64,000 nucleotides of DNA, from positions 1 to 64,000 of the forward strand of contig CACKNV010000006.1 of the NCBI GenBank assembly GCA_902601705.1, given 5' to 3'. The notes under the pieces were generated by a model. The model was not told where the DNA came from. It ran no database searches and saw nothing but the letters and a program-made list of their open reading frames with translations. The position numbers and the translations under genes were made by a program. This document shows, one piece after another, positions 5,371 through 24,719 of this stretch. The stretch is from an uncultured Pelagibacteraceae bacterium (lineage in GTDB: Bacteria > Pseudomonadota > Alphaproteobacteria > Pelagibacterales > Pelagibacteraceae). Positions within the stretch are counted from its first letter, which is position 1. Every line of letters begins with the position of its first letter.

Positions 5371-5413
5371 GGTTTTTCTGCAGATTATAAAGTAACCAAA
5401 AAAGGGGCATAAA

Positions 5414-5689
5414 ATGAATAAAAAACAACTAGTAGCGAAAATATCGTCAACTTTGGGTCAAAGTAAAGCTGATGCTGAAAGAACTTTTGATTCAATAACG
5501 ACAATTATTTTAGATGCTTTGAAAAATGACGATACTGTTAAAATAGCTGGTTTTGGTACTTATAAAGTAGCAAAGAGAAAAGCTAGAGTAGGAAGAAATC
5601 CTAGAACAGGTGAGTCAATTCAAATCGCTGCATCACAAAAAGTAAAGTTTTTACCTGCTAAAAGCTTAAAAGAAATGTTTAATCGATAG
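5414..5689 (+). CDS. hup: HU-family DNA-binding protein
   Basis: A small nucleoid protein of 91 residues that bends and compacts DNA. It has the complete HU/IHF fold: MNKKQLVAKIS start, the GFGTYKVAKRKARVGRNPRTGE DNA-binding arm around residues 46-68 with the conserved RNPRTG, and VKFLPAKSLKE at the end. A purine-rich ribosome site (AAAGGGG) lies about six bases before the ATG. The gene stands alone between an upstream inverted repeat and a downstream terminator hairpin, so it is probably a highly expressed single-gene transcript. Confidence 0.95.
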   Translation: MNKKQLVAKISSTLGQSKADAERTFDSITTIILDALKNDDTVKIAGFGTYKVAKRKARVGRNPRTGESIQIAASQKVKFLPAKSLKEMFNR

Positions 5690-5697
5690 ACGTTTAA

Positions 5698-5732
5698 TTA
5701 GCCCTTATTTGATAACCTCAAATAAGGGCTAA
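5698..5732 (+). terminator. hairpin terminator after hup
   Basis: A perfect 15-bp stem (5698-5712 with 5718-5732, core TTAGCCCTTATTTGA) around a 5-base loop TAACC, beginning nine bases after the HU stop codon. No clear T-run follows on the plus strand, so it may act as a 3' stabiliser as well as a terminator. Confidence 0.75.
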
Positions 5733-5823
5733 CTACTTGCAAAAACTGCATAGCTAAAATTAAGACATTTCAATACTAATTTAAACATATAAATTCTATA
5801 AGGCCTGCAACAAGGGAGAACTT

Positions 5824-7116
5824 ATGAAAAAATACATTGGTTACTTTTTAGCGGGTACAGCCATTTACTTTGGTTTTGCTGGTTTAGGTTATGCCGAAAC
5901 TACAGTATCTGCAGAAGTACAATACATATTTAATACTATATTATTTTTGATGTCAGGTTTCTTGGTCATGTGGATGGCCGCAGGATTTGCAATGTTAGAG
6001 TCAGGGTTGGTAACATCAAAGTCTGTATCAGCAATCTGTGCAAAAAATATAGGTCTTTATTCAATCGCTGGGGTAATGTTCTGGCTGGTTGGTTATAATT
6101 TAGCTTACGGTATTCCTGAAGGTGGATATATCGGTACATTTACACCGTGGAGTGATGCATCAAAACTTGAGACAGGTTATTCTGATGGATCCGATTGGTT
6201 TTTCCAAATGGTGTTCTGTGCCACTACAATGTCAATCGTTTCGGGAACTTTAGCTGAAAGAATTAAGATCTGGCCATTTTTCTTATTTGCCGCAATTTTA
6301 ACTGGAATTATTTATCCAATTTCAATGGGTTGGCAGTGGGGTGGCGGATGGTTATCTGTTGCTGGTTTCTCTGATTTTGCTGGTTCTACACTAGTACATG
6401 CTGCTGGAGGAGCTGCTGCTTTAGCCGGTGCTATCGTTCTTGGTGCCAGATCAGGCAGATTCTCGAGTAGAGGAGAAGCTAAGCCTATGGCGCCTTTTGC
6501 GGCATCATCTATTCCATTAGCAACCTTAGGAGTATTTATACTTTGGTTAGGTTGGTTTGGATTTAATGGTGGATCACAATTAGCCGCTGGAACACTTGAA
6601 GATGTGTCTTCAGTAGCAACAATTTATATCAATACGAACTTAGCTGCAGGTGGCGGTGTATTAGCTGCTGCAACTGTATCAAGAGTAATTGGTGGTAAAA
6701 CTGACGTAGTAATGATGCTAAACGGCGCGATAGCTGGATTAGTGGGTATTACGGCAGAACCATTAACACCAAGTCCGTTAGCTGCAATCTTCATTGGAGC
6801 GATAGCTGGAGTATTAATGTACTTCTCAACAAAACTATTGTTCAAAATGAAAATTGACGACGTAGTAGGTGCCATACCAGCACACTTAGTAGCTGGAGTA
6901 TGGGGTACATTAGCAGTGCCATTAACAAACGGTGATGTTACTTTCGGAGCACAATTCCTAGGTACAATCTCAGTTGTGGTATTCGTATTCATAGTCTCGT
7001 TTATTGTTTTCCAAATTATTAAAAATACAATTGGATTAAGAATAAGCAAAGAAGCTGAAAGACTAGGAACCGACAAAGCAGAGGTTGGTGTAATAGCTTA
7101 CGGTATCAGAGACTAA
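5824..7116 (+). CDS. amtB: ammonium transporter (first of a tandem pair)
   Basis: An 11-helix inner-membrane ammonium channel of 430 residues with a cleavable signal peptide (cut near GYA-ET, residue 24). The twin pore histidines are His192 (STLVHAAGG) and His354 (IPAHLVAGVWG), and GWQWGGGWL and GWFGFNGGS are conserved pore-lining blocks. The C-terminal tail ISKEAERLGTDKAEVG is the part that contacts PII proteins in this family. AGGGAG precedes the ATG. A close paralogue follows after a terminator. Two genes suggest strong reliance on ammonium uptake. Confidence 0.96.
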   Translation: MKKYIGYFLAGTAIYFGFAGLGYAETTVSAEVQYIFNTILFLMSGFLVMWMAAGFAMLESGLVTSKSVSAICAKNIGLYSIAGVMFWLVGYNLAYGIPEGGYIGTFTPWSDASKLETGYSDGSDWFFQMVFCATTMSIVSGTLAERIKIWPFFLFAAILTGIIYPISMGWQWGGGWLSVAGFSDFAGSTLVHAAGGAAALAGAIVLGARSGRFSSRGEAKPMAPFAASSIPLATLGVFILWLGWFGFNGGSQLAAGTLEDVSSVATIYINTNLAAGGGVLAAATVSRVIGGKTDVVMMLNGAIAGLVGITAEPLTPSPLAAIFIGAIAGVLMYFSTKLLFKMKIDDVVGAIPAHLVAGVWGTLAVPLTNGDVTFGAQFLGTISVVVFVFIVSFIVFQIIKNTIGLRISKEAERLGTDKAEVGVIAYGIRD

Positions 7117-11132: not shown

Positions 11133-11693
11133 ATGAATCCCACAGTTAATAAAAGTGATTTTGAAGATTTAACTACAAATTTAAAAGACCTAGCTTATTC
11201 ATATTTAGAAAAATACAATCCTTCAAAACAACAATTAAAAGTTTATCTACTAAAAAAATATTTGACTAAAATAAAGGGCACAAAGTCAAAAAAAGAAGTT
11301 ACATTGATTATAGACGAAATCATTACAAATCTAGAAAGAAATAAAATTATAAATGATGAAATGTATTCTGACTCTAAAGCCAGGATGTTCTTAAGAAGAG
11401 GTTATTCATTAAACAAAATAAATCAATCATTAAGAAATAAAGGAATAAATGATAAATTTATAAAACAGAGTATAGATAAAATTAAAGAAGATGAGATAGA
11501 GCCTGATTTTGTTTCAGCTCTTAAACTATGCAAAAGAAGAAGAATTGGCCCGATAAGACCAGAGGAAAATAGAGAATTATTTTATAAAAAAGATATGGGA
11601 ATTTTAGCTAGAGGAGGCTTTAGTTTTGAATTATCAAAAAGAGTTTTAGATTTAGAAAAAAATGAGTTTAATAAATTAATCAAAATTATCTGA
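11133..11693 (+). CDS. recX: regulatory protein RecX
   Basis: A 186-residue all-helical protein of the RecX family, which binds RecA filaments and limits recombinase activity. It shows the repeated three-helix units: DLAYSYLEKYNPSKQQLKVYL, then YSDSKARMFLRRGYSLNKINQSLRNKGI, then a C-terminal repeat containing GILARGGFSFELSKRVL. recA is not in the window, so regulation and partner are separated. Its last 18 bases overlap the 3' end of a small membrane-protein frame on the other strand. Confidence 0.85.
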   Translation: MNPTVNKSDFEDLTTNLKDLAYSYLEKYNPSKQQLKVYLLKKYLTKIKGTKSKKEVTLIIDEIITNLERNKIINDEMYSDSKARMFLRRGYSLNKINQSLRNKGINDKFIKQSIDKIKEDEIEPDFVSALKLCKRRRIGPIRPEENRELFYKKDMGILARGGFSFELSKRVLDLEKNEFNKLIKII

Positions 11694-11819
11694 TTTTCTT
11701 TTTTTTTCTTCTTCCACTAAAACATCAAGTTTTCTTTTAAGAGCATTTCTTACTAAAATAAAAAATAAAACACCGAAAAAAGTCACTGATAAAATAATTA
11801 TAGCAATAGTTTTAATCAT
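11676..11819 (-). CDS. 47-aa single-pass membrane protein
   Basis: A short frame, easily missed, running from ATG at 11819 to TAA at 11676. It encodes one hydrophobic helix (about residues 4-23, IAIIILSVTFFGVLFFILV) followed by a highly charged cytoplasmic tail (KRKLDVLVEEEKKRKSDNFD). Its start overlaps the stop of cysQ in the form ATGATTAA, the classic arrangement for translational coupling. Without it the stretch between recX and cysQ would be an unusual 118-base gap for this compact genome. No family is recognised. Confidence 0.65.
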   Translation of the reverse strand: MIKTIAIIILSVTFFGVLFFILVRNALKRKLDVLVEEEKKRKSDNFD

Positions 11820-12591
11820 TTAAATTTTCGGAACGTTTTATTAATAAACTTGGATTTTTATAATCTTCTTTGCCGTATAAAAAAGGTTTTTCATCGAGTG
11901 TCTTAATAATAGCTCCTGCATTTTGAGCTATAGCATGTCCAGCTGCATAGTCCCATTCGTTAGCTCTTTCTCTTGCAGCGTAAATATCATATTCTCCAGT
12001 CGCAATAACGCAAAATTTGTAAGAACTTGCCATTTTGACAATCGAATTAACATTATATTCCTTTAATTTATTTAAAATAAAATCTGATGGTTTTACTACA
12101 CTTGATAGAGCAACAACTTTCCCTTTTGGCTGTTGTTTAGCGCAATTAATTTTTTGTGTTTTTCCATTCTCTATCATGAAACTTTCTCCAGGAGCAAAAG
12201 TATAAAAAAGTCTATTTTTTTTTGGCGCTCCAACTAAACCTAGCACTGGTATTGTATCAATTACTAACGCTGCATTCAAAGTGTATTCATCTTTTCCGGC
12301 AATATATTCTTTTGTTCCATCAATAGGATCAATTAGCCAAAAAATTTTGGCTGAATTTTTAACATTCAAATCAACTGTTTCCTCAGAAATTATTGGAATG
12401 TTAGGCGTAATCTTTTTAATTTTTGATGTAATAAGATCATTAACTATAAGATCACCGTTGCTTACTGGAGATTTATCTTCTTTTATCTCAATTTTAAGCC
12501 CTCTATTAAATAAATCTATAGACTCTCTTCCTGCCAACTTAAAAGTATCTATTAAATTTTCACTTATTGATTTTAGTTCATTTAACTTCAT
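11812..12591 (-). CDS. cysQ: 3'(2'),5'-bisphosphate nucleotidase CysQ
   Basis: A magnesium-dependent phosphatase of the inositol monophosphatase superfamily that removes the 3'-phosphate from PAP/PAPS. The 259-residue protein has the metal sites Glu70-Glu71 (PIISEE) and Asp88/Asp91 in WLIDPIDGTKEY, plus EWDYAAGHAI at the C-terminal metal site. Lithium-sensitive members share these motifs. It overlaps the DUF3553 gene upstream by 14 bases and is translationally coupled to the 47-aa protein downstream. Inositol phosphatase activity is the main alternative; the GTKEY variant favours CysQ. Confidence 0.9.
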   Translation of the reverse strand: MKLNELKSISENLIDTFKLAGRESIDLFNRGLKIEIKEDKSPVSNGDLIVNDLITSKIKKITPNIPIISEETVDLNVKNSAKIFWLIDPIDGTKEYIAGKDEYTLNAALVIDTIPVLGLVGAPKKNRLFYTFAPGESFMIENGKTQKINCAKQQPKGKVVALSSVVKPSDFILNKLKEYNVNSIVKMASSYKFCVIATGEYDIYAARERANEWDYAAGHAIAQNAGAIIKTLDEKPFLYGKEDYKNPSLLIKRSENLND

Positions 12592-12760
12592 TATCTATTT
12601 TTTTTAGATTTATATTTTCTGCATTAATGACTTTTTTTCCACAATTTTCAAAATTGACAGTTACCTTATTACCTACAACGGATTGAACTTGACCAATGCC
12701 CCATTCTTTATTAGCAGGATTTGAGACAAAATCTCCTGGTTCAAAATCAATTAGCATCAT
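12578..12760 (-). CDS. DUF3553 small protein
   Basis: A 60-residue basic protein matching DUF3553: a small SH3/Tudor-like beta barrel with FEPGDFVSNPANKEWGIGQVQSVVGNKVTV and NFENCGKKVI. Comparable barrels occur at the end of UvrD-type helicases, suggesting nucleic-acid or protein contacts, but the free-standing form is uncharacterised. Two consecutive ATGs open the frame; either could be used. It precedes cysQ with a 14-base overlap and is divergent from mnmA across 36 bases. Confidence 0.82.
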   Translation of the reverse strand: MMLIDFEPGDFVSNPANKEWGIGQVQSVVGNKVTVNFENCGKKVINAENINLKKIDNEVK

Positions 12761-12796
12761 GGAAAATTACTCTTTTTTCGATTATACACTTAAATA

Positions 12797-13924
12797 ATGA
12801 ATTCACTAGGAATTAATAAACCAAAAAAAGAAACTAAGGTAGTTGTCGCTATGTCAGGTGGTGTGGACTCATCTGTTGTAGCGGCTCTTATGAAACAAGA
12901 AGGTTATGATGTAACAGGCATAACCCTTAAATTGTACGATGATACAAAACAACTCAAAGAAGGTAGACAATGTTGTGCAGGTCAAGATATATTAGACGCA
13001 AAAAGGGTATCAGAAAAAATTGATATTAATCATAAAATTCTTTTCTATCAAAAAAAATTTAAGTCTGAAGTAATAGAATCATTTATAGATAGTTATGCTG
13101 CTGGAGAAACCCCAATTCCATGTGTTCAATGTAATCAAACAGTTAAATTTAGAGATTTATTTAAATATGCAAAAAATTTAAATGCTGATGCTCTTATAAC
13201 AGGTCATTATGTAAAAAGGGTGCATGAGAACGGTCACGCAAATATGTATCGAGCTAAAGATCAAAACAGAGACCAAAGTTATTTTTTATTTAGCACTACT
13301 CAAGAACAATTAGATTATCTTAGATTTCCATTAGGGGAGATTGATAAATCAGAGACAAGATCTATTGCAGAAAAATTAAATTTAAATGTAGCAACAAAAC
13401 CAGATAGTCAAGATATATGTTTTGTTCCTAATGGTGATTATGCTTCTGTTATAAATAAATTTAGACCTGAGTCATTTCAACCAGGAAAAATAATTAATTT
13501 GAATGGTTCACAAATCGGCAAACACGAGGGAATTATTAATTACACTATTGGTCAGAGAAAAGGAATTAAGATTGCTAGCAATAATCCATTATATGTTGTT
13601 AACATTGATGCTAAAAAAAATACTATTACAGTAGGGAGCAAAGAATGTCTTCAGGTGAAAAAGATAAGATTAAGAGAATTAAATATTTTAGGATCTAAAA
13701 AAGAATTGGACAAAGTGATTAACATTAAAGTTAGATCTACTGGAAGGCTATTAAAGGCTAAAATAAACTTGATAGATAATTTTGCGGACGTAGAAATTTT
13801 AGAGCCAGAAATTGGTATTTCTCCAGGGCAAGCCTGTGTTTTTTATCATAAAGATAGCTTTGGGGATAAGATGTTAGGTGGAGGCTGGATACATAAGACT
13901 TATAATAAAAATTTATCCACCTAA
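12797..13924 (+). CDS. mnmA: tRNA-specific 2-thiouridylase MnmA
   Basis: Thiolates U34 of the glutamate, glutamine and lysine tRNAs. The 375-residue enzyme has the PP-loop [14 protein letters not shown] at residues 16-29 and the two sulfur-relay cysteines in [13 protein letters not shown] and [24 protein letters not shown] and the C-terminal barrel with SPGQACVFY complete the family. The ATG begins 36 bases from the divergent DUF3553 gene. A short structured-RNA gene follows. Confidence 0.96.
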
Positions 13925-15029: not shown

Positions 15030-16226
15030 ATGAAAAAGTCTATAAGCACATTCTTAAAACACCCCACTAAAGACAGCACTAATAGGTCTGCCAATCCTCC
15101 GGTGACTAGAGCCTCAACTATTTTATTCAATTCAGTTCAAGAAATGTATCAACATGAATTGAAAATTAAAAAACATAAAAAAGTGTCACATTATACTTAT
15201 GGAAGATACGGGAGTACGACGACAATAGAGCTCGAAAATATTTTAAAAGAATTAGAACAGGCTTATCACGTTTTTTTGACAGGAACTGGTTTTGGAGGAA
15301 TAGCTTTGGCTTTAATGTCTCTCTGCAGGCCAGGAGATGAAATTTTGGTTTCTGATAATGTATATGGTCCAACAAAAGAAATATCTCAAGAGTTGCTTAG
15401 AGAATTCAATGTAAGTGCAAAATTTTATAATCCAGATTCATTTGAAGACCTAAAAAAAAAAATATCAACAAAAACAAAAATGATATTAGTTGAAAATCCT
15501 GGAAGCAATACTTTTGAATTTCAAGATTTATCAAAAATCACTCAGCTAGCAAAAAGAAAAAAAATTTTTACACTTTTAGATAATACTTGGGGAACTCCGC
15601 TTTATTTAAAGCCATTAAAAATTGGTTTTGACATGTCTTTTTGTTCAGCTACAAAATATTTTTCAGGCCATTCGGATGCTATGGGCGGTTCTCTGGCTGT
15701 AAATAAAAAAGTTTTTAAAAAGATTATGTTTTTTTATAAATTATCTGGCTATAGAATGTCAGCCGATGAGGCTTATTTAATCATAAGAGGTTTAAGAACT
15801 TTAGACACAAGATTAAAACAACATAGTGAGAATACAAAAGTTATAATTAATTTTTTAAAAAGACAAAAAAAGATAAAAGAAATACTTTACCCTCACAATC
15901 CTTCCTCTAAAAATTATAAACTTTGGAAAAAATATTACTCTGGTGCAACTGGCTTACTCTCAATTGTTATTAAAAGCAAAAAAAAATCTTCTGTAATACA
16001 ATTTGTAAATTCTTTAAAATTATTTGGTATAGGATATAGCTGGGGAGGTTTCGAAAGTTTAGCTATACTTCAAGAATTAAAAAATAATAAAAAGGATGAA
16101 TATTTGAAAGGACGTCAATTTTACCGATTTAACTATGATGAATTTATTGTGAGATTGCACATTGGATTAGAGGATCCAAAAGATTTAATTAACGATCTTA
16201 AAAAAGGATTAAAAAAAATTAAGTAA
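15030..16226 (+). CDS. metC: cystathionine beta-lyase (Cys/Met metabolism PLP enzyme)
   Basis: A 398-residue pyridoxal-phosphate enzyme of the trans-sulfuration family. The cofactor lysine is Lys209 in SFCSATKYFSGHSD, Asp184 in LLDNTWGTP contacts the pyridine nitrogen, and SHYTYGRYGSTTT is the family's N-terminal phosphate-binding tyrosine region. C-terminal SWGGFESL is typical of MetC, which splits cystathionine to homocysteine, pyruvate and ammonia. Methionine gamma-lyase or O-acylhomoserine thiolyase are alternatives. No SAM-type riboswitch fits in the 67-base spacer ahead. The stop overlaps the MFS start by one base. Confidence 0.85.
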   Translation: MKKSISTFLKHPTKDSTNRSANPPVTRASTILFNSVQEMYQHELKIKKHKKVSHYTYGRYGSTTTIELENILKELEQAYHVFLTGTGFGGIALALMSLCRPGDEILVSDNVYGPTKEISQELLREFNVSAKFYNPDSFEDLKKKISTKTKMILVENPGSNTFEFQDLSKITQLAKRKKIFTLLDNTWGTPLYLKPLKIGFDMSFCSATKYFSGHSDAMGGSLAVNKKVFKKIMFFYKLSGYRMSADEAYLIIRGLRTLDTRLKQHSENTKVIINFLKRQKKIKEILYPHNPSSKNYKLWKKYYSGATGLLSIVIKSKKKSSVIQFVNSLKLFGIGYSWGGFESLAILQELKNNKKDEYLKGRQFYRFNYDEFIVRLHIGLEDPKDLINDLKKGLKKIK

Positions 16227-17449
16227 TGAAAAATTTTTTTCCGAATAAAACCGCACTGTATGCTTTAACAGCTGCATGTTTAGTTGTTTGTGCAACTATG
16301 GGAGTAAGACAAACATTCGGACTTTACTCAAGTGATTTTGAGACAAGTGGGGGAACGTCAAATACAGAATTTGGATTAGCGATTGCAGTTCACGCAATCT
16401 TTTGGGGAATTTTTACCCCAATATTTGGTAGAATTTCAGACAGACTGGGCGGTTATGTTGTAATCGTTCCGGCTTTAATTTTCTACTCGATATCAATGAT
16501 GTTAATGGGAAATAACTTCATTTCAGGTGTGTGGCTACAAATTAATTTAGGTCTACTTGTTGGTTTGGGTTTAGCAGGCGCTGCTGGGACTATTCTTACC
16601 CCAATGATTTCAAAACATTTTCCAAATGAAAATAGAAGTAAAGCAGCAGGTATTGTTACAGCTTGCGGAGGTTTAGGAATGTTTATTTTTCCTATTCTGG
16701 CAAATATTTTTAAAAACATTTCTACTTGGCAAATGTCTTTTATAATTTTTTCGATTATTTTATTTTTAATGTGTATACCCGGGTTTTTTGTTAAACTTCC
16801 TAAAAATCAAGCATCAAATCTAAATACTAATATTGACAATCGAAGCCTAAAAGAAGTTTTAAAAGAATCCTTTGCGCATAAAGGATTTAGATTATTAGTT
16901 TTAGGTTTTTTTGTTTGCGGTTTTCAAATTACTTTAATAGCAACTCATGTCCCAAGATATGTTCAAGATAAAGGGCTAGCTGATTGGACAGGAATGGCTA
17001 TTCTAGCATTAATTGGTTTTTTCAATATTGTTGGAACTTTAGTTATGGGTTATTTAGGAGATAAATATAGTAAAAAGATACTTTTAAGTGGGCTTTATTT
17101 TTTAAGAGGTATAACTTTAATTCTATTTATTTTTTTACCAGCTACAAATTTGTCTGCTGTGTTGTTCGGCACATCTTTTGGATTATTATGGCTCGCTACT
17201 GTACCAGCTACTAACGGTATCGTTGCTCAAATTTTTGGAACAAAAAATTTATCTCTTCTATTTGGTATAGTATTCCTAAATCATCAATTCGGATCATTTT
17301 TGGGAGCTTACTTAGGAGGTTATTTTTATGATCAATTTGGAACTTTTGATTATGCTTGGTATTTAGCTATAGTCTTATCATTTATTGCTACAGCTCTTCA
17401 CCTTCCGATAGACGAAAAGCCCTTGGCAACTGTGGATAAAACTATCTAA
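16226..17449 (+). CDS. major facilitator superfamily transporter
   Basis: A 407-residue, 12-helix transporter. The loop 2-3 motif appears as GRISDRLGGYVVI and its second-half counterpart as GYLGDKYSKKILL. The family resembles the monocarboxylate/oxalate-formate antiporter group (conserved GVRQTFGLYSSDFE in helix 1). It is coupled to the metC-like gene with a TAATG junction, so a sulfur compound or organic-acid substrate is possible but inferred. Its final codons contain a DnaA-box-like 9-mer. Confidence 0.85.
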   Translation: MKNFFPNKTALYALTAACLVVCATMGVRQTFGLYSSDFETSGGTSNTEFGLAIAVHAIFWGIFTPIFGRISDRLGGYVVIVPALIFYSISMMLMGNNFISGVWLQINLGLLVGLGLAGAAGTILTPMISKHFPNENRSKAAGIVTACGGLGMFIFPILANIFKNISTWQMSFIIFSIILFLMCIPGFFVKLPKNQASNLNTNIDNRSLKEVLKESFAHKGFRLLVLGFFVCGFQITLIATHVPRYVQDKGLADWTGMAILALIGFFNIVGTLVMGYLGDKYSKKILLSGLYFLRGITLILFIFLPATNLSAVLFGTSFGLLWLATVPATNGIVAQIFGTKNLSLLFGIVFLNHQFGSFLGAYLGGYFYDQFGTFDYAWYLAIVLSFIATALHLPIDEKPLATVDKTI

Positions 17450-17531: not shown

Positions 17532-17588
17532 TTTTTTTATTTAATCATTTAAATTTTTTTTATAATCTTAATCTAACAAAGGAGAAAT

Positions 17589-18257
17589 ATGTTTTCATCA
17601 GTTCTAGGAGAAAAGTTAGACAAACACCACTTACTCAAACACCCGTTTTATCAAATTTACTGGAATGAGGGTAAATTGAATAGAGAAATTATTAAAGATT
17701 ATGCTGAACAATATTACCAGCACGTTAAAGCGTTTCCAAGATACATAAGTGCAACTCACTCTATTTGTGAAGACATAGAGAAAAGAAGGATTCTTCTAGA
17801 AAATTTACAAGATGAGGAAAACAAAGATGGTGATCACCCTAAACTTTGGAAAAATTTTGCAAAAGCTTTGGGAGCTGATGATAATAAAATAGAAAACACA
17901 AAACTTGATTGGTTTACAAAGGATATGATTGATAATTTTTTCGCTCAAGCGAGAAAATCTTATGCTGAAGGCCTTGCATCTTTATATACTTATGAAAGAC
18001 AAATACCTGAAATAGCGGAAACTAAAATTCAAGGGTTAAAAAAATTTTATGGAGTAAGATCTAAAGAAGGTCTTGAATTTTTTGAAGCGCATAAATCTGC
18101 AGACGTTATACATAGAGCAGAATGTGAAAAACTTTTGGACGGACTTTCTGAAGAGGAACAAAAGAAGGCTGAAAACGCTTCATTGTTAACTGCTAGATAT
18201 CTATGGAATTTCTTAAGCGGAATGGTTTCTAAGCACAAACTACAACAAGCAGCATAG
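17589..18257 (+). CDS. CADD-type heme-oxygenase-fold protein, candidate para-aminobenzoate synthase
   Basis: A 222-residue helical protein of the CADD/TenA-PqqC fold. Compared from memory with chlamydial CADD, all metal ligands are conserved at identical spacing: Glu76, His83, Glu136, His168, Asp172 and His175. The self-sacrificed tyrosine of CADD corresponds to Tyr21 (HPFYQIYW) and its essential lysine to Lys146 (AETKIQGL). CADD-type enzymes build para-aminobenzoate for folate from their own tyrosine side chain, consuming the protein. AAAGGAG precedes the ATG. folE at 1.6 kb supports a folate link; a TenA-like oxidase is the alternative. Confidence 0.78.
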   Translation: MFSSVLGEKLDKHHLLKHPFYQIYWNEGKLNREIIKDYAEQYYQHVKAFPRYISATHSICEDIEKRRILLENLQDEENKDGDHPKLWKNFAKALGADDNKIENTKLDWFTKDMIDNFFAQARKSYAEGLASLYTYERQIPEIAETKIQGLKKFYGVRSKEGLEFFEAHKSADVIHRAECEKLLDGLSEEEQKKAENASLLTARYLWNFLSGMVSKHKLQQAA

Positions 18258-18300
18258 TTAACAAAGTCAAGATTGACAATTAAGTTCAAGAGGAATACCT

Positions 18301-18333
18301 ATGAACTATAAATGGAAATATATCTTCCTATAG
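18301..18333 (+). other. possible 10-codon leader ORF overlapping a TauE/SafE start
   Basis: ATG at 18301 opens a ten-codon frame (MNYKWKYIFL, stop at 18331-18333) that spans the ATG of the transporter at 18312 in another frame. AGAGGA lies at the right distance for 18301 and too far for 18312, so ribosomes may load on the leader and reinitiate. Confidence 0.3.
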
Positions 18334-19400
18334 TTCAAATTCACATAGATATAATCACAATTTTATTTATTAGTTTTGCAGTCGGAGTTCTTTCAGGTTT
18401 ATTTGGTGTCGGCGGAGGGTTTTTAATGACACCATTTTTAATATTTTTAGGGATACCACCAGTTTATGCAGTTCCAAATGAAATAAACAATATATTAGCA
18501 ACTTCAGTATCTGGATCAATGACACACTGGTTTAAAAAAACTTTAGACTACAAAATGGGCTTGATGATAATTATTGGTGGAGTTGTGGGAACTATTTTAG
18601 GAATTATTTCTTTTACTTTTTTTAAAGAAACTGGGAAGTTGAGTTTGATTATTTCGTTATCATATATGTATCTTCTTGCGATTATCGGTACATTGATGCT
18701 TATTGAGGGTGCTAAAGAAATCGATAGGGCTAGAAAAAAATTAATTTTAAAACAAAAATTACACACACACTATTGGATACATGGCTTACCTTTTAAACTT
18801 CGATTTCCAAAATCAAGACTTTATGAGAGTGCTTTTACGCCAATCTTACTTGGTGTTATAGTAGGTTTTGTTGCAGCATTAATAGGAGTGGGAGGAGCTT
18901 TTTTGATGGTGCCTGCAATGATTTATTTAATAGGTATGCCAGTAAAATTTATACCTGGAACATCTTTATTTGTTACAGTTTTTATAAGTGCACTAGTAAC
19001 TATATTACACGCATTTAATTATGGCTCTATAGATTTAATTTTAGTAATAATTTTAGTAATAGGTTCTATTATTGGAGTACAGGTTGGTCAGAAAGTCGGG
19101 CAATATTTAGATAGCTCACATTTAAAAACTTTATTTGCAATGTTGTTATGTACAGTTGCTATAGCTATTGCATATGATACATTTTTTTATGAGGGGGTAA
19201 GGCAATTCAAAGATGCTGAAATAGTTAACTTTGAAAACCTAAACTTTTTTTCTAGATTTATCTCAAAGTTATCTGAAAATAATCCCCTTCTTTATGGATC
19301 AATGGCAATACTTTTAGCTATTTTACTAGGAATAATAGGTGCGGGTGGCAGACAATTATTGAGTAAATATAGACACTTTTTCTTAATTAAAAAAAATTAA
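18312..19400 (+). CDS. TauE/SafE family transporter (362 aa)
   Basis: An integral membrane protein with two TauE/SafE half repeats, each starting with the glycine-rich signature: GLFGVGGGFLMTPFLIFLGI near residue 30 and AALIGVGGAFLMVPAMIYLI near residue 190. The family exports sulfite, sulfoacetate or related anions, though many members are uncharacterised. It is longer than usual, with a linker between the halves and extra C-terminal helices. The first in-frame ATG (18312) follows an in-frame stop directly, so no earlier start exists. It converges, with a four-base overlap, on a second family member. Confidence 0.88.
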   Translation: MEIYLPIVQIHIDIITILFISFAVGVLSGLFGVGGGFLMTPFLIFLGIPPVYAVPNEINNILATSVSGSMTHWFKKTLDYKMGLMIIIGGVVGTILGIISFTFFKETGKLSLIISLSYMYLLAIIGTLMLIEGAKEIDRARKKLILKQKLHTHYWIHGLPFKLRFPKSRLYESAFTPILLGVIVGFVAALIGVGGAFLMVPAMIYLIGMPVKFIPGTSLFVTVFISALVTILHAFNYGSIDLILVIILVIGSIIGVQVGQKVGQYLDSSHLKTLFAMLLCTVAIAIAYDTFFYEGVRQFKDAEIVNFENLNFFSRFISKLSENNPLLYGSMAILLAILLGIIGAGGRQLLSKYRHFFLIKKN

Positions 19401-22764: not shown

Positions 22765-23052
22765 ATGAGTGGATACGTGATAGCTAATATAGACGTTAAA
22801 AATCCTGAAGCTTATAAGGAATACGTTGGTAAGGTGTTACCGACTGTTCAAAAATTCGGAGGTGAATACCTTGTACGTGCCGGCGAGTACAAAGTTATAG
22901 ATGGTGAGTGGAAATACCCTAGAACAGTAGTAATTAAATTTCCAACTTATGAAAAAGCTTTAGAGTGGTATGACTCTGAGGAATATAAACCGGTAAAACC
23001 AATTCGATTAGCAAATTCAGTTGCTAATGGAATAATAATTAAAGGAATTTAA
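22765..23052 (+). CDS. DUF1330 family protein
   Basis: A 95-residue dimeric alpha/beta-barrel protein of the DUF1330 family: MSGYVIANIDVKNPEAYKEY at the start, FGGEYLVRAGEY in the middle, and FPTYEKALEWYDSEEYKPVKPIR at the end. Related folds bind small aromatic or heme-like ligands or act as monooxygenases, but no function is established for this family. Second gene of the small-protein operon, just after the secreted protein's stop. Confidence 0.88.
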   Translation: MSGYVIANIDVKNPEAYKEYVGKVLPTVQKFGGEYLVRAGEYKVIDGEWKYPRTVVIKFPTYEKALEWYDSEEYKPVKPIRLANSVANGIIIKGI

Positions 23053-23067
23053 ATAAAAGGAAAAAAA

Positions 23068-23358
23068 ATGGAAAAAGAAATGTTAGTACATCTTAAATTT
23101 AAAGAGGGCAAATTAGAAACTTTTACTAGCTGGATGCAATCAGATGAAGGTATGGGCGTTAGAAAGAGTGTTGCTTACCCAGAAAAAACCGTCGGGGCTA
23201 TGATTCCTGATAAAAGTGGAATGTTATTTAAAGTTAATGTTCATAACGAAGCTGGGATGAAAGAGTTTGTAACTGGGAACAATCCTACAGCTAAAGCGAT
23301 TTATGCAGAATGTGTAGATAGTGCTCAGTTATATGAGCTATCAAAAATAAATCTATAA
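23068..23358 (+). CDS. small unknown protein, possible ferredoxin-like fold
   Basis: A 96-residue soluble protein (MLVHLKFKEGKLETFTSWMQ, SGMLFKVNVHNEAGMKEFV). The beta-alpha-beta pattern, ligand-sized length and position among DUF1330, monooxygenase-like and GYD genes suggest a ferredoxin-like or dimeric alpha/beta-barrel protein. I recognise no family motif. AAAGGAAAA precedes the ATG. Third gene of the operon. Confidence 0.65.
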   Translation: MEKEMLVHLKFKEGKLETFTSWMQSDEGMGVRKSVAYPEKTVGAMIPDKSGMLFKVNVHNEAGMKEFVTGNNPTAKAIYAECVDSAQLYELSKINL

Positions 23359-23368
23359 AGGAGGAAAA

Positions 23369-23656
23369 ATGAAAAACTATATGGTAACGCATACTTTTAA
23401 GTCTGCCGAAATGAAAAAAAAATTTACTGATACAGTGGCCTCTATGAAAATGGAGGACATTGTTAAGAGCATGAAAAGTGACAATGCAGCTTGTCAAATG
23501 ACTTGGAACACGCCAGGAGATACAATGGAAATGTATTGTTGGTGGAAAGGAAAAGATGAGCAAGCAATTATTAATCAACTAGGTCAAATGAATGATTTTT
23601 TTACTCCTCATAAGTTTGTTGAGTGCACAGATCAAGTCATGGACTATAACGCATAG
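23369..23656 (+). CDS. small unknown protein, possible ferredoxin-like fold
   Basis: A 95-residue soluble protein rich in methionine (ten or more) with three cysteines (AACQMTW, MYCWWKG, VECTDQ) and paired tryptophans. Its size and strand/helix pattern match the preceding gene and the other barrels in the operon, but no family is recognised. Methionine, cysteine and tryptophan clustering could point to metal, heme or oxidant sensing; that is inference. A strong AAGGAGG site precedes the ATG. Fourth gene of the operon. Confidence 0.65.
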   Translation: MKNYMVTHTFKSAEMKKKFTDTVASMKMEDIVKSMKSDNAACQMTWNTPGDTMEMYCWWKGKDEQAIINQLGQMNDFFTPHKFVECTDQVMDYNA

Positions 23657-23663
23657 GATATTT

Positions 23664-24080
23664 ATGATCGATAAATTTGGAAACGCATTTTATTTAATAA
23701 TTTACTTAGCACATTTTATTATAGTTGGTAGCTACGCTTACCAATTAGTTTTTGATACTAAAAAATTTCTAAAGGGTAGAGGAGTTGATAAAACTGCTAC
23801 CTTGATTACGAGATTTGCAGGCTCATTCATGATTGCTACTGTTTTAATGGCAATATATATCGCTTTTATTAGATCAGGCGGTGTAGAGGCTACTTGGGCT
23901 TTCTTTAACTTAGTTTTTATAATGAATGTTTCGATATTAGTTGTAAATTTTTATACATTAAAGATTGATAAAACAGGTTTAACTAAAAAAACTAGAAACG
24001 ATGGAATATATGCTCCACTCGTTCTTGTTATTATCAGCGCTATTCTTTGTTACGGTTTAGCAGATAAAATTTACGTTTAA
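23664..24080 (+). CDS. four-helix membrane protein of unknown function
   Basis: A 138-residue integral membrane protein with four hydrophobic helices (near residues 6-25, 45-66, 74-94 and 112-133) and basic loops (KKFLKGRGVDKT, KKTRNDG). The ATG at 23664 follows the previous stop by seven bases and gives a sensible start; the longer frame from 23592 overlaps the upstream gene. The four-helix layout recalls small cytochrome-b or DoxX-like bundles, but I see no conserved histidine pair. Fifth gene of the operon and its only membrane component. Confidence 0.68.
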   Translation: MIDKFGNAFYLIIYLAHFIIVGSYAYQLVFDTKKFLKGRGVDKTATLITRFAGSFMIATVLMAIYIAFIRSGGVEATWAFFNLVFIMNVSILVVNFYTLKIDKTGLTKKTRNDGIYAPLVLVIISAILCYGLADKIYV

Positions 24081-24088
24081 GGAGTAAA

Positions 24089-24382
24089 ATGGCAAAGTTT
24101 ATGAATATTGTTAGATGCAAAGTAAAATCATCTAGCAGAGAAGAATATTTAAAAAAAATTGATGAGCGGCCAAAGTTCGACGGTCAAATTTCAGCAAAGT
24201 ACGTTGAAACTAAACCAAACGAATTTTTTATGATTGGTGAATGGAATTCTGAAGATGATATTGCTAAAGCAAGACCGAAAATGATTGAATTTTTGGATTC
24301 GCTCAGGCACACTTTAGAAGAACTGTCATCAGATTTAGGAGTAACTGATCCTCATTCTGGTACAGTTGTAATCGAGAAATAG
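24089..24382 (+). CDS. antibiotic-biosynthesis-monooxygenase-like small protein
   Basis: A 97-residue protein resembling the ABM-type dimeric alpha/beta barrel: FMNIVRCKVKSSSREEYLKKI, central FFMIGEWNSEDDIAKARPKM and FLDSLRHTLEEL. The layout strand, helix, paired strands, helix is that of the fold; catalytic residues are not defined for this group. GGAGTAAA precedes the ATG. Sixth gene of the operon. Confidence 0.68.
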   Translation: MAKFMNIVRCKVKSSSREEYLKKIDERPKFDGQISAKYVETKPNEFFMIGEWNSEDDIAKARPKMIEFLDSLRHTLEELSSDLGVTDPHSGTVVIEK

Positions 24383-24395
24383 GAAAGGGGTAACA

Positions 24396-24719
24396 ATGGC
24401 AAAATTTTATACACTTGGATGTTACACAGCCAAAGGTCTTGGGGGATTTGTAAGCAATCCGTCTACAGACAGAAAAGCTGCTACATCTGCACTTGCTGCT
24501 TCTGTAGGAGCTAAAGTAACTCAATACTCAGGCCTAAGAGGAAAATATGATTTTATGGCAGTGATTGAAGGAACTTTTGAACAAGCTGCTGCAGCTGCAA
24601 TGGTTGCTGTTTCTAGTGGTGCTGTTTCAGATTTTACAATTTTAGAAGATGTAGATCTAAATGAGATAGCTAAAACTGCTCAGAAAATGGCTTCATCATA
24701 CAAAGAGCCAGGAAAATAA
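24396..24719 (+). CDS. GYD-domain protein
   Basis: A 107-residue protein of the GYD family: YTLGCYTAKGLGGFV, AATSALAASVGAKVTQYSGLRGKYDFMAVIEG and FEQAAAAAMVAVSSGAVSDFTILED. The family has a ferredoxin-like fold and unknown function. AAAGGGG precedes the ATG. It is the last gene of the operon; the next gene is convergent with no spacing, and no terminator hairpin is evident between them. Confidence 0.85.
   Translation: MAKFYTLGCYTAKGLGGFVSNPSTDRKAATSALAASVGAKVTQYSGLRGKYDFMAVIEGTFEQAAAAAMVAVSSGAVSDFTILEDVDLNEIAKTAQKMASSYKEPGK

Follow-up and report, generated by a model that had tools for sequence, protein, structure and literature searches.

Two self-sacrificing para-aminobenzoate (pABA) synthases, one from an obligate intracellular pathogen and one from a nitrifier, are described as characterised (PMC11965152). 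The first is CADD of Chlamydia trachomatis (CT610; structures 1rcw and 8va9), which sits in a folate gene cluster, carries Tyr141 and Tyr170 beside its metals and is considered an Mn/Fe enzyme; a further part in the death of host cells has been proposed for it. The second is NePabS of the free-living Nitrosomonas europaea (NE1434; 9pj4), which has Phe148 and Phe177 at these positions and prefers Fe/Fe, its F148Y variant showing similar activity with Fe/Fe and with Mn/Fe. The same source assigns the roles of the sacrificed tyrosine, the amino-donor lysine and the essential Tyr41 of NePabS, proposes a mechanism, and names Wolbachia, Rickettsia, Chloroflexi, Sphingomonas and Nitrosomonas as holders of the family (PMC11965152). 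A folate gene context of CADD was described for Chlamydia and Wolbachia (PMC1971073). In Rickettsia, another reduced alphaproteobacterial lineage, the family member (frC, or fol_rel_CADD, TIGR04305) was discussed as a possible pABA path, its locus being reported as degraded in almost all rickettsiae (PMC5615194). PqqC and BesC have the fold superfamily in common with these enzymes. In the open-licence PMC literature no paper among the matches listed dealt with CADD or with its exchange for pab genes in SAR11, and term look-ups in PMC2395257, PMC13108848, PMC2217521 and PMC3160333 yielded nothing on either subject. The family and its reaction are already known, and it is the genomic setting in SAR11 that is unusually informative.

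A member of this family is encoded in an uncultured Pelagibacteraceae bacterium, within the first 64,000 nucleotides of contig CACKNV010000006.1 (assembly GCA_902601705.1), a stretch called the window here. The nearest named relatives, at 97% identity, are uncultured Pelagibacteraceae (SAR11), and the genome measures 1.08 Mb at 94.85% completeness. The open reading frame is intact (Table 1), and its G+C content of 33.2% is similar to that of its neighbours (MFS 33.0%, TauE 30.3%; window 30.6%). A promoter and terminator scan was uninformative, with 4 promoter-like sites against 4.4 expected and 0 terminators. Elsewhere in the window, at 22765-24719, small ORFs of 95, 96, 95, 97 and 107 aa follow one another, with a 162-aa membrane-like ORF among them; by eye, the small ORFs resemble short proteins of ferredoxin-like fold (Dabb/monooxygenase-type).

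Table 1. Features of the window at and around the CADD-type gene.
Feature	Position	Strand	Basis or remark
CADD-type (TIGR04305) self-sacrificing pABA synthase, predicted	17589..18257	+	ATG at 17589, stop codon ends at 18257; 222 aa; family scores, alignments
AGGAG Shine-Dalgarno-like sequence	17580..17584	+	4 nt upstream of ATG
Codon of Tyr21, predicted sacrificed tyrosine	17649..17651	+	alignments
Codon of Tyr24, extra residue of the window's clade	17658..17660	+	alignments, CADD trees
Codon of Lys146, predicted amino donor	18024..18026	+	alignments
MFS transporter, upstream flank of exchange site	16226..17449	+	
TauE/SafE family permease, downstream flank	18312..19400	+	aprM-aprB-aprA missing at window locus
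Cystathionine beta-lyase-like PLP enzyme (CBL)	15030..16226	+	upstream of MFS; best model TIGR01324, below cut-off
RecX (+) / inositol-phosphatase-like (-) / MnmA (+) block	11133..13924	mixed	landmark of compared SAR11 loci; gene names presumed, given by recognition

By NCBIfam profile search the protein scored 300.6 bits on TIGR04305 (fol_rel_CADD, described there as 'CADD family putative folate metabolism protein'; cut-off 200), and with an E value of 5.5e-90 the match is not due to chance. Near full-length PDB alignments were obtained with CADD (1rcw, E 1.6e-44; 8va9, E 3.9e-44) and with NePabS (9pj4, E 6.2e-43). A Pfam 'Death' match (E 0.022, below cut-off) was set aside. An AlphaFold2 model, for which close relatives were aligned in 34 rows, reached a mean pLDDT of 53.3, too poor for use. 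No virus-borne CADD copies were found in viral-contig and phage collections. A further TIGR04305 match, weak at 38.3 bits and located at G157:C1:107051-107596 in a genome of genus g148, is possibly a divergent paralogue of the heme-oxygenase fold.

The Pfam matches of the protein, Haem_oxygenas_2 (PF14518) and TENA_THI-4 (PF03070), are fold families that it has in common with PqqC and BesC, and weak matches to the models of both enzymes were obtained, so an enzyme of that kind acting on another, free substrate has to be weighed. This is highly improbable: the PqqC and BesC scores (49.1 and 24.6 bits) lie far below the respective cut-offs of 240 and 500, whereas TIGR04305 is exceeded by 100 bits; the gene occupies the slot in which a sister genus keeps pabB-pabA-pabC, as described below; and the residues consumed by the characterised enzymes never vary within the family and are found in none of the 24 sub-threshold homologues examined.

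These residues were read from the PDB alignments. Tyr21 aligns with Tyr27 of CADD and Tyr25 of NePabS, Lys146 with Lys152 and Lys159, and Tyr38 with Tyr41 of NePabS, whose Trp99 has its equivalent in Trp87. Starting from what we take to be the ligand numbers of CADD, the same alignments map the six dimetal ligands (three His, three carboxylates) to Glu76, His83, Glu136, His168, Asp172 and His175. Tyr21, Tyr38, Lys146 and all six ligands stay the same in 115 of 115 rows of the family alignment, which is made up of the window gene twice, the best 80 of 233 contig loci, 30 SAR11 genome loci and 3 members from other alphaproteobacterial families, some of the rows being near-identical species. The negative control consisted of sub-threshold homologues, 24 of which were recovered from the 25 loci kept from a class scan (all but L102); Tyr at position 21 and Lys at position 146 were each found in 0 of the 24, all six ligands were kept in 6 and a single ligand in 17. 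The Tyr/Lys pair therefore marks the family and not the fold. The initial annotation had placed the ligands, Tyr21 and Lys146 at positions and spacings matching those of CADD: the positions stand, and the spacing is not the same throughout, owing to the extra Tyr24 after Tyr21. It had also made its assignment depend on the conservation of the Tyr and Lys in orthologues, which proved invariant in every row, and its proposal of a CADD-type pABA synthase is supported by the TIGR04305 score together with the conserved catalytic residues as the highly probable identity of the protein.

Two features set the SAR11 protein apart from the characterised enzymes. One extra residue, Tyr24, which neither CADD nor NePabS has, separates Tyr21 from the conserved Trp; it occurs in 86 of the 115 rows, all 86 with intact catalytic residues. 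In the CADD tree the extra-residue rows formed one clade (13 rows, support 100/99) in a run that had absurd outgroup branches, and with columns 22-24 omitted they again formed one clade (12 rows, 97/96); Tyr24 is therefore a derived feature that marks part of the window's genus. The aromatics beside the metals are Tyr135 and Phe164 in 115 of 115 rows, as opposed to the Tyr/Tyr of CADD and the Phe/Phe of NePabS. Because NePabS F148Y has the same Tyr/Phe pair and works with both metal combinations, the SAR11 enzyme is predicted to tolerate Fe/Fe or Mn/Fe. For metal choice and mechanism, this pair and the additional residue by the sacrificed tyrosine offer direct handles.

The pABA options of the window's own genome were then read from profile matches. 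The pabB model has a single match, TrpE, which scores 561.6 bits on TIGR00564 against a cut-off of 517.7; the pabC model likewise has one, IlvE, with 438.5 bits on NF005726 against a cut-off of 396. The TrpG/PabA model has four matches, of which only the best, at 213.9 bits and directly after TrpE, is among the matches listed (down to ~123 bits). The initial annotation had suggested looking for pabABC in this genome: the pabB, pabC and TrpG/PabA model searches found no such set, only TrpE, IlvE and, among the TrpG/PabA matches listed, the one adjoining TrpE. At 94.85% completeness a missing operon is not strictly proven for this genome, and the near-complete relatives G092, G161, G181 and G157 agree that it is missing. 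FolP (dihydropteroate synthase, DHPS) is present at 283.2 bits (cut-off 162.6); since it is present and neither PabB nor PabC was found, the CADD gene is the only recognisable pABA source found in the genome. An unrecognised chorismate route, with TrpE-TrpG serving as aminodeoxychorismate synthase and IlvE as lyase, could be drawn from the proteins present, which are homologous to PabB/PabA and PabC, and one paper reports a PabC-type enzyme with two functions (PMC8105722). Such a route is extremely unlikely, as the sister genus has TrpE/TrpG too and yet keeps a separate pabB-pabA-pabC where CADD is absent.

A survey of 148 Pelagibacteraceae genomes, each at least 80% complete, separated the two pathways. 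Both occurred together in 0 genomes, CADD without pab in 76, a putative PabB-like enzyme beyond TrpE without CADD in 50, and neither in 22; CADD was above cut-off in 76 and FolP in 142 of the 148. The pabB model was above cut-off in 0 of 148, and the pabC model gave matches in 143, again 0 of them above cut-off; since this model matches IlvE, operon context was used in its place. PabB was counted either as a second match (46 genomes, with second-match positions for at least 21) or as a sole match other than TrpE (G160, G259, G261 and G283, each confirmed by reading the operon). The genomes with PabB are 49 of the 54 of genus g147 plus G160 of g151. Of the other five g147 genomes, four show nothing closely matching the CBL landmark, so the locus is probably missing from their assemblies, and the contig of G271 ends at MFS. 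The Fisher p value for exclusion between CADD and PabB, 2e-22, ignores shared ancestry and overstates the exclusion, because there were few independent switches. In a broader sample from the class, 153 genomes in all, pabB was above cut-off in 0 of the 5 genomes with CADD above cut-off, versus 38 of the 148 others. G209, with CADD and a sole weak pabB match, was considered as a counter-example and rejected, the match being a contig-cut TrpE (80% identity to the TrpE of the window's genome, 33% to PabB of G155). In G166 (g148, 96% complete) neither CADD nor PabB was found, which makes it a candidate pABA or folate auxotroph or else reflects an assembly gap.

The 22 genomes with neither pathway would also be in keeping with a former pABA synthase that has lost its activity, pABA or folate being imported instead. 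SAR11 bacteria are, to our knowledge, without other vitamin pathways, and the extra residue adjoining Tyr21 in the window's clade, which both characterised enzymes are without, points the same way. Against this, nine of the 22 have another account: seven are probably limited by assembly, having no close CBL match or a contig ending at MFS (G170, G188, G198, G237, G239, G271 and G295), and two contain partial CADD matches (G176 and G236); for the remaining 13 there is no such account. The gene is moreover under purifying selection (pN/pS has a median of 0.083 across 78 of 80 relatives, 20 of them with saturated dS), and the extra-residue rows are no exception to the conservation of the catalytic residues. 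Loss of activity is accordingly very unlikely. The SAR11 gene, intact and under selection, differs in this from the degraded Rickettsia locus.

A genetic argument for a pABA synthase comes from the chromosomal site. Locus reading, which labels only genes of a reference set, gave 80 loci of the window's kind: MFS-CADD-TauE in 40, MFS-CADD-AprM in 38, and MFS-CADD followed by nothing labelled in 2. In the window TauE/SafE comes directly after CADD (18258-18311 between them), with the apr genes missing, as in 40 of the 80 loci of the genus. The pab loci of g147 that were read, six chosen and three read to confirm sole matches, have the order pabB-pabA-pabC-HIT-aprM-aprB-aprA in 9 of 9; MFS adjoins pabB, with CBL before MFS, in 8, and the contig of the ninth ends inside pabB. 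Two further genomes can be laid side by side: G154 (g146) reads MFS-135aa-124aa-CADD-aprM-aprB-aprA-u116-TauE, and contig 62 of G160 (g151) reads MFS-135aa-124aa-pabB-pabA-pabC-aprM-aprB-aprA-u116-TauE, the small 135-aa and 124-aa genes common to both being 70% and 86% identical. Since the pab operon and CADD share their flanks, one gene stands where a sister has three, and the two are found, in different genera, at one chromosomal site. Such an exchange speaks well, on genetic grounds, for equivalence of function; together with the exclusion it is stronger evidence than the coordinates of the initial annotation provide.

Other CADD genes stand elsewhere. In g2, g148 and g152 CADD is flanked by HU and serC-serA-serB and precedes RecX by a few genes (L163, L164, L165, L175 and L176). 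The window and G155 (g147) have the RseP-HU neighbourhood, with no CADD in it. In G127, from another alphaproteobacterial family, locus L171 (4008-7153) contains a FolK-FolP fusion, a DHFR-like gene, CADD and a TIGR04132 folate glutamate ligase, CADD lying between the DHFR-like gene, which follows folKP, and the ligase gene, a setting like the one known for Chlamydia and Wolbachia (PMC1971073). No folate genes were found among the CADD neighbours examined in G113 and G109. The SAR11 gene has another neighbourhood than that of NePabS and, unlike chlamydial CADD, does not sit in a folate gene cluster.

The g147 operon itself is very likely a pABA operon, judging from its domains (chorismate_bind, GATase and Aminotran_4 in Pfam), from a gene order that fits one, and from profile scores of which one is above cut-off. 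In G155, PabA exceeds its cut-off (trpG_papA, 122.6 bits against 121.05), the best model of PabB is PabB-clade2, below cut-off (250.5 bits against 408.55), and the best models of PabC are aminodeoxychorismate lyases, at 41.0 bits and less, below cut-off. The motif of E. coli PabB is PIKGT; PIAGT was found in 7 of 7 PabB sequences examined, as in the TrpE of the window's genome. Where TrpE has PAGT, PabB of G155 has PGGS, which is a PabB-like form, and the g147 genomes have TrpE-TrpG as well, elsewhere. In L160, from the single-contig g147 genome G204, PabB shows a change of frame N-terminally with 4 stops (~5400-6560), from decay or sequencing error. The genus g147 may, as a guess, be Pelagibacter in the strict sense.

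As to the direction of the exchange, the species tree (FtsH, FolP, GlmM and PurA, by a quick method, with outgroup long-branch and composition warnings) nests the pab genus g147 among CADD-bearing genera, which favours CADD as the ancestral state. No firm direction is claimed, because G160, whose assembly has 8% contamination, also carries the operon and the CADD tree is indecisive, a single clade of the relocated CADDs being neither shown nor rejected (p-AU 0.22). The identities of CBL, MFS and apr genes are mosaic between genera (L169, L168, L250 and L251); compared with the g147-like contig L251, for instance, CBL of G242 is 79% and MFS of G158 78% identical. This mosaic, though not a formal test, suggests recombination at the exchange site. 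Taken jointly, a tentative reading, to which we give somewhat less than an even chance, is that the pABA step in SAR11 may be an exchangeable cassette, in which CADD and the pab operon would be alternative alleles of the MFS-apr site, exchanged from lineage to lineage through recombination within the flanks that they share, with the operon in g147 and in the partly contaminated g151 assembly and CADD in their sisters.

Whatever the history of the site, it is highly probable, from family, residues and gene context, that the gene encodes a pABA synthase of the CADD/NePabS type which acts in SAR11 as a functional substitute for the pabB-pabA-pabC operon. By homology, and following the mechanism proposed for CADD and NePabS (PMC11965152), the protein would be a dimetal oxygenase of heme-oxygenase fold that activates O2 at its two metals, with the oxidising equivalent travelling along aromatic residues to Tyr21 as a radical transfer. 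The side chain of Tyr21 would be cleaved off, leaving glycine behind, and the released side chain oxidised to the carboxylate (benzoate), while Lys146 would supply the amino group; as both residues would be consumed, at most one pABA could be made per protein. DHPS of the same genome would use this pABA for folate. The host-cell-death role of CADD is not to be expected in free-living SAR11.

Conserved and intact in much of Pelagibacteraceae, the gene would place this chemistry among the core reactions of a lineage abundant in the ocean, and make it more than a curiosity. The trade-off that it implies is one gene and no need of chorismate, set against a need of O2 and metals. If the pABA step is indeed an exchangeable cassette, an abundant ocean lineage would spend one protein molecule per pABA, and the Tyr/Phe pair would permit whichever of Fe or Mn is available. 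The question raised is when one protein per pABA pays, compared with keeping three genes.
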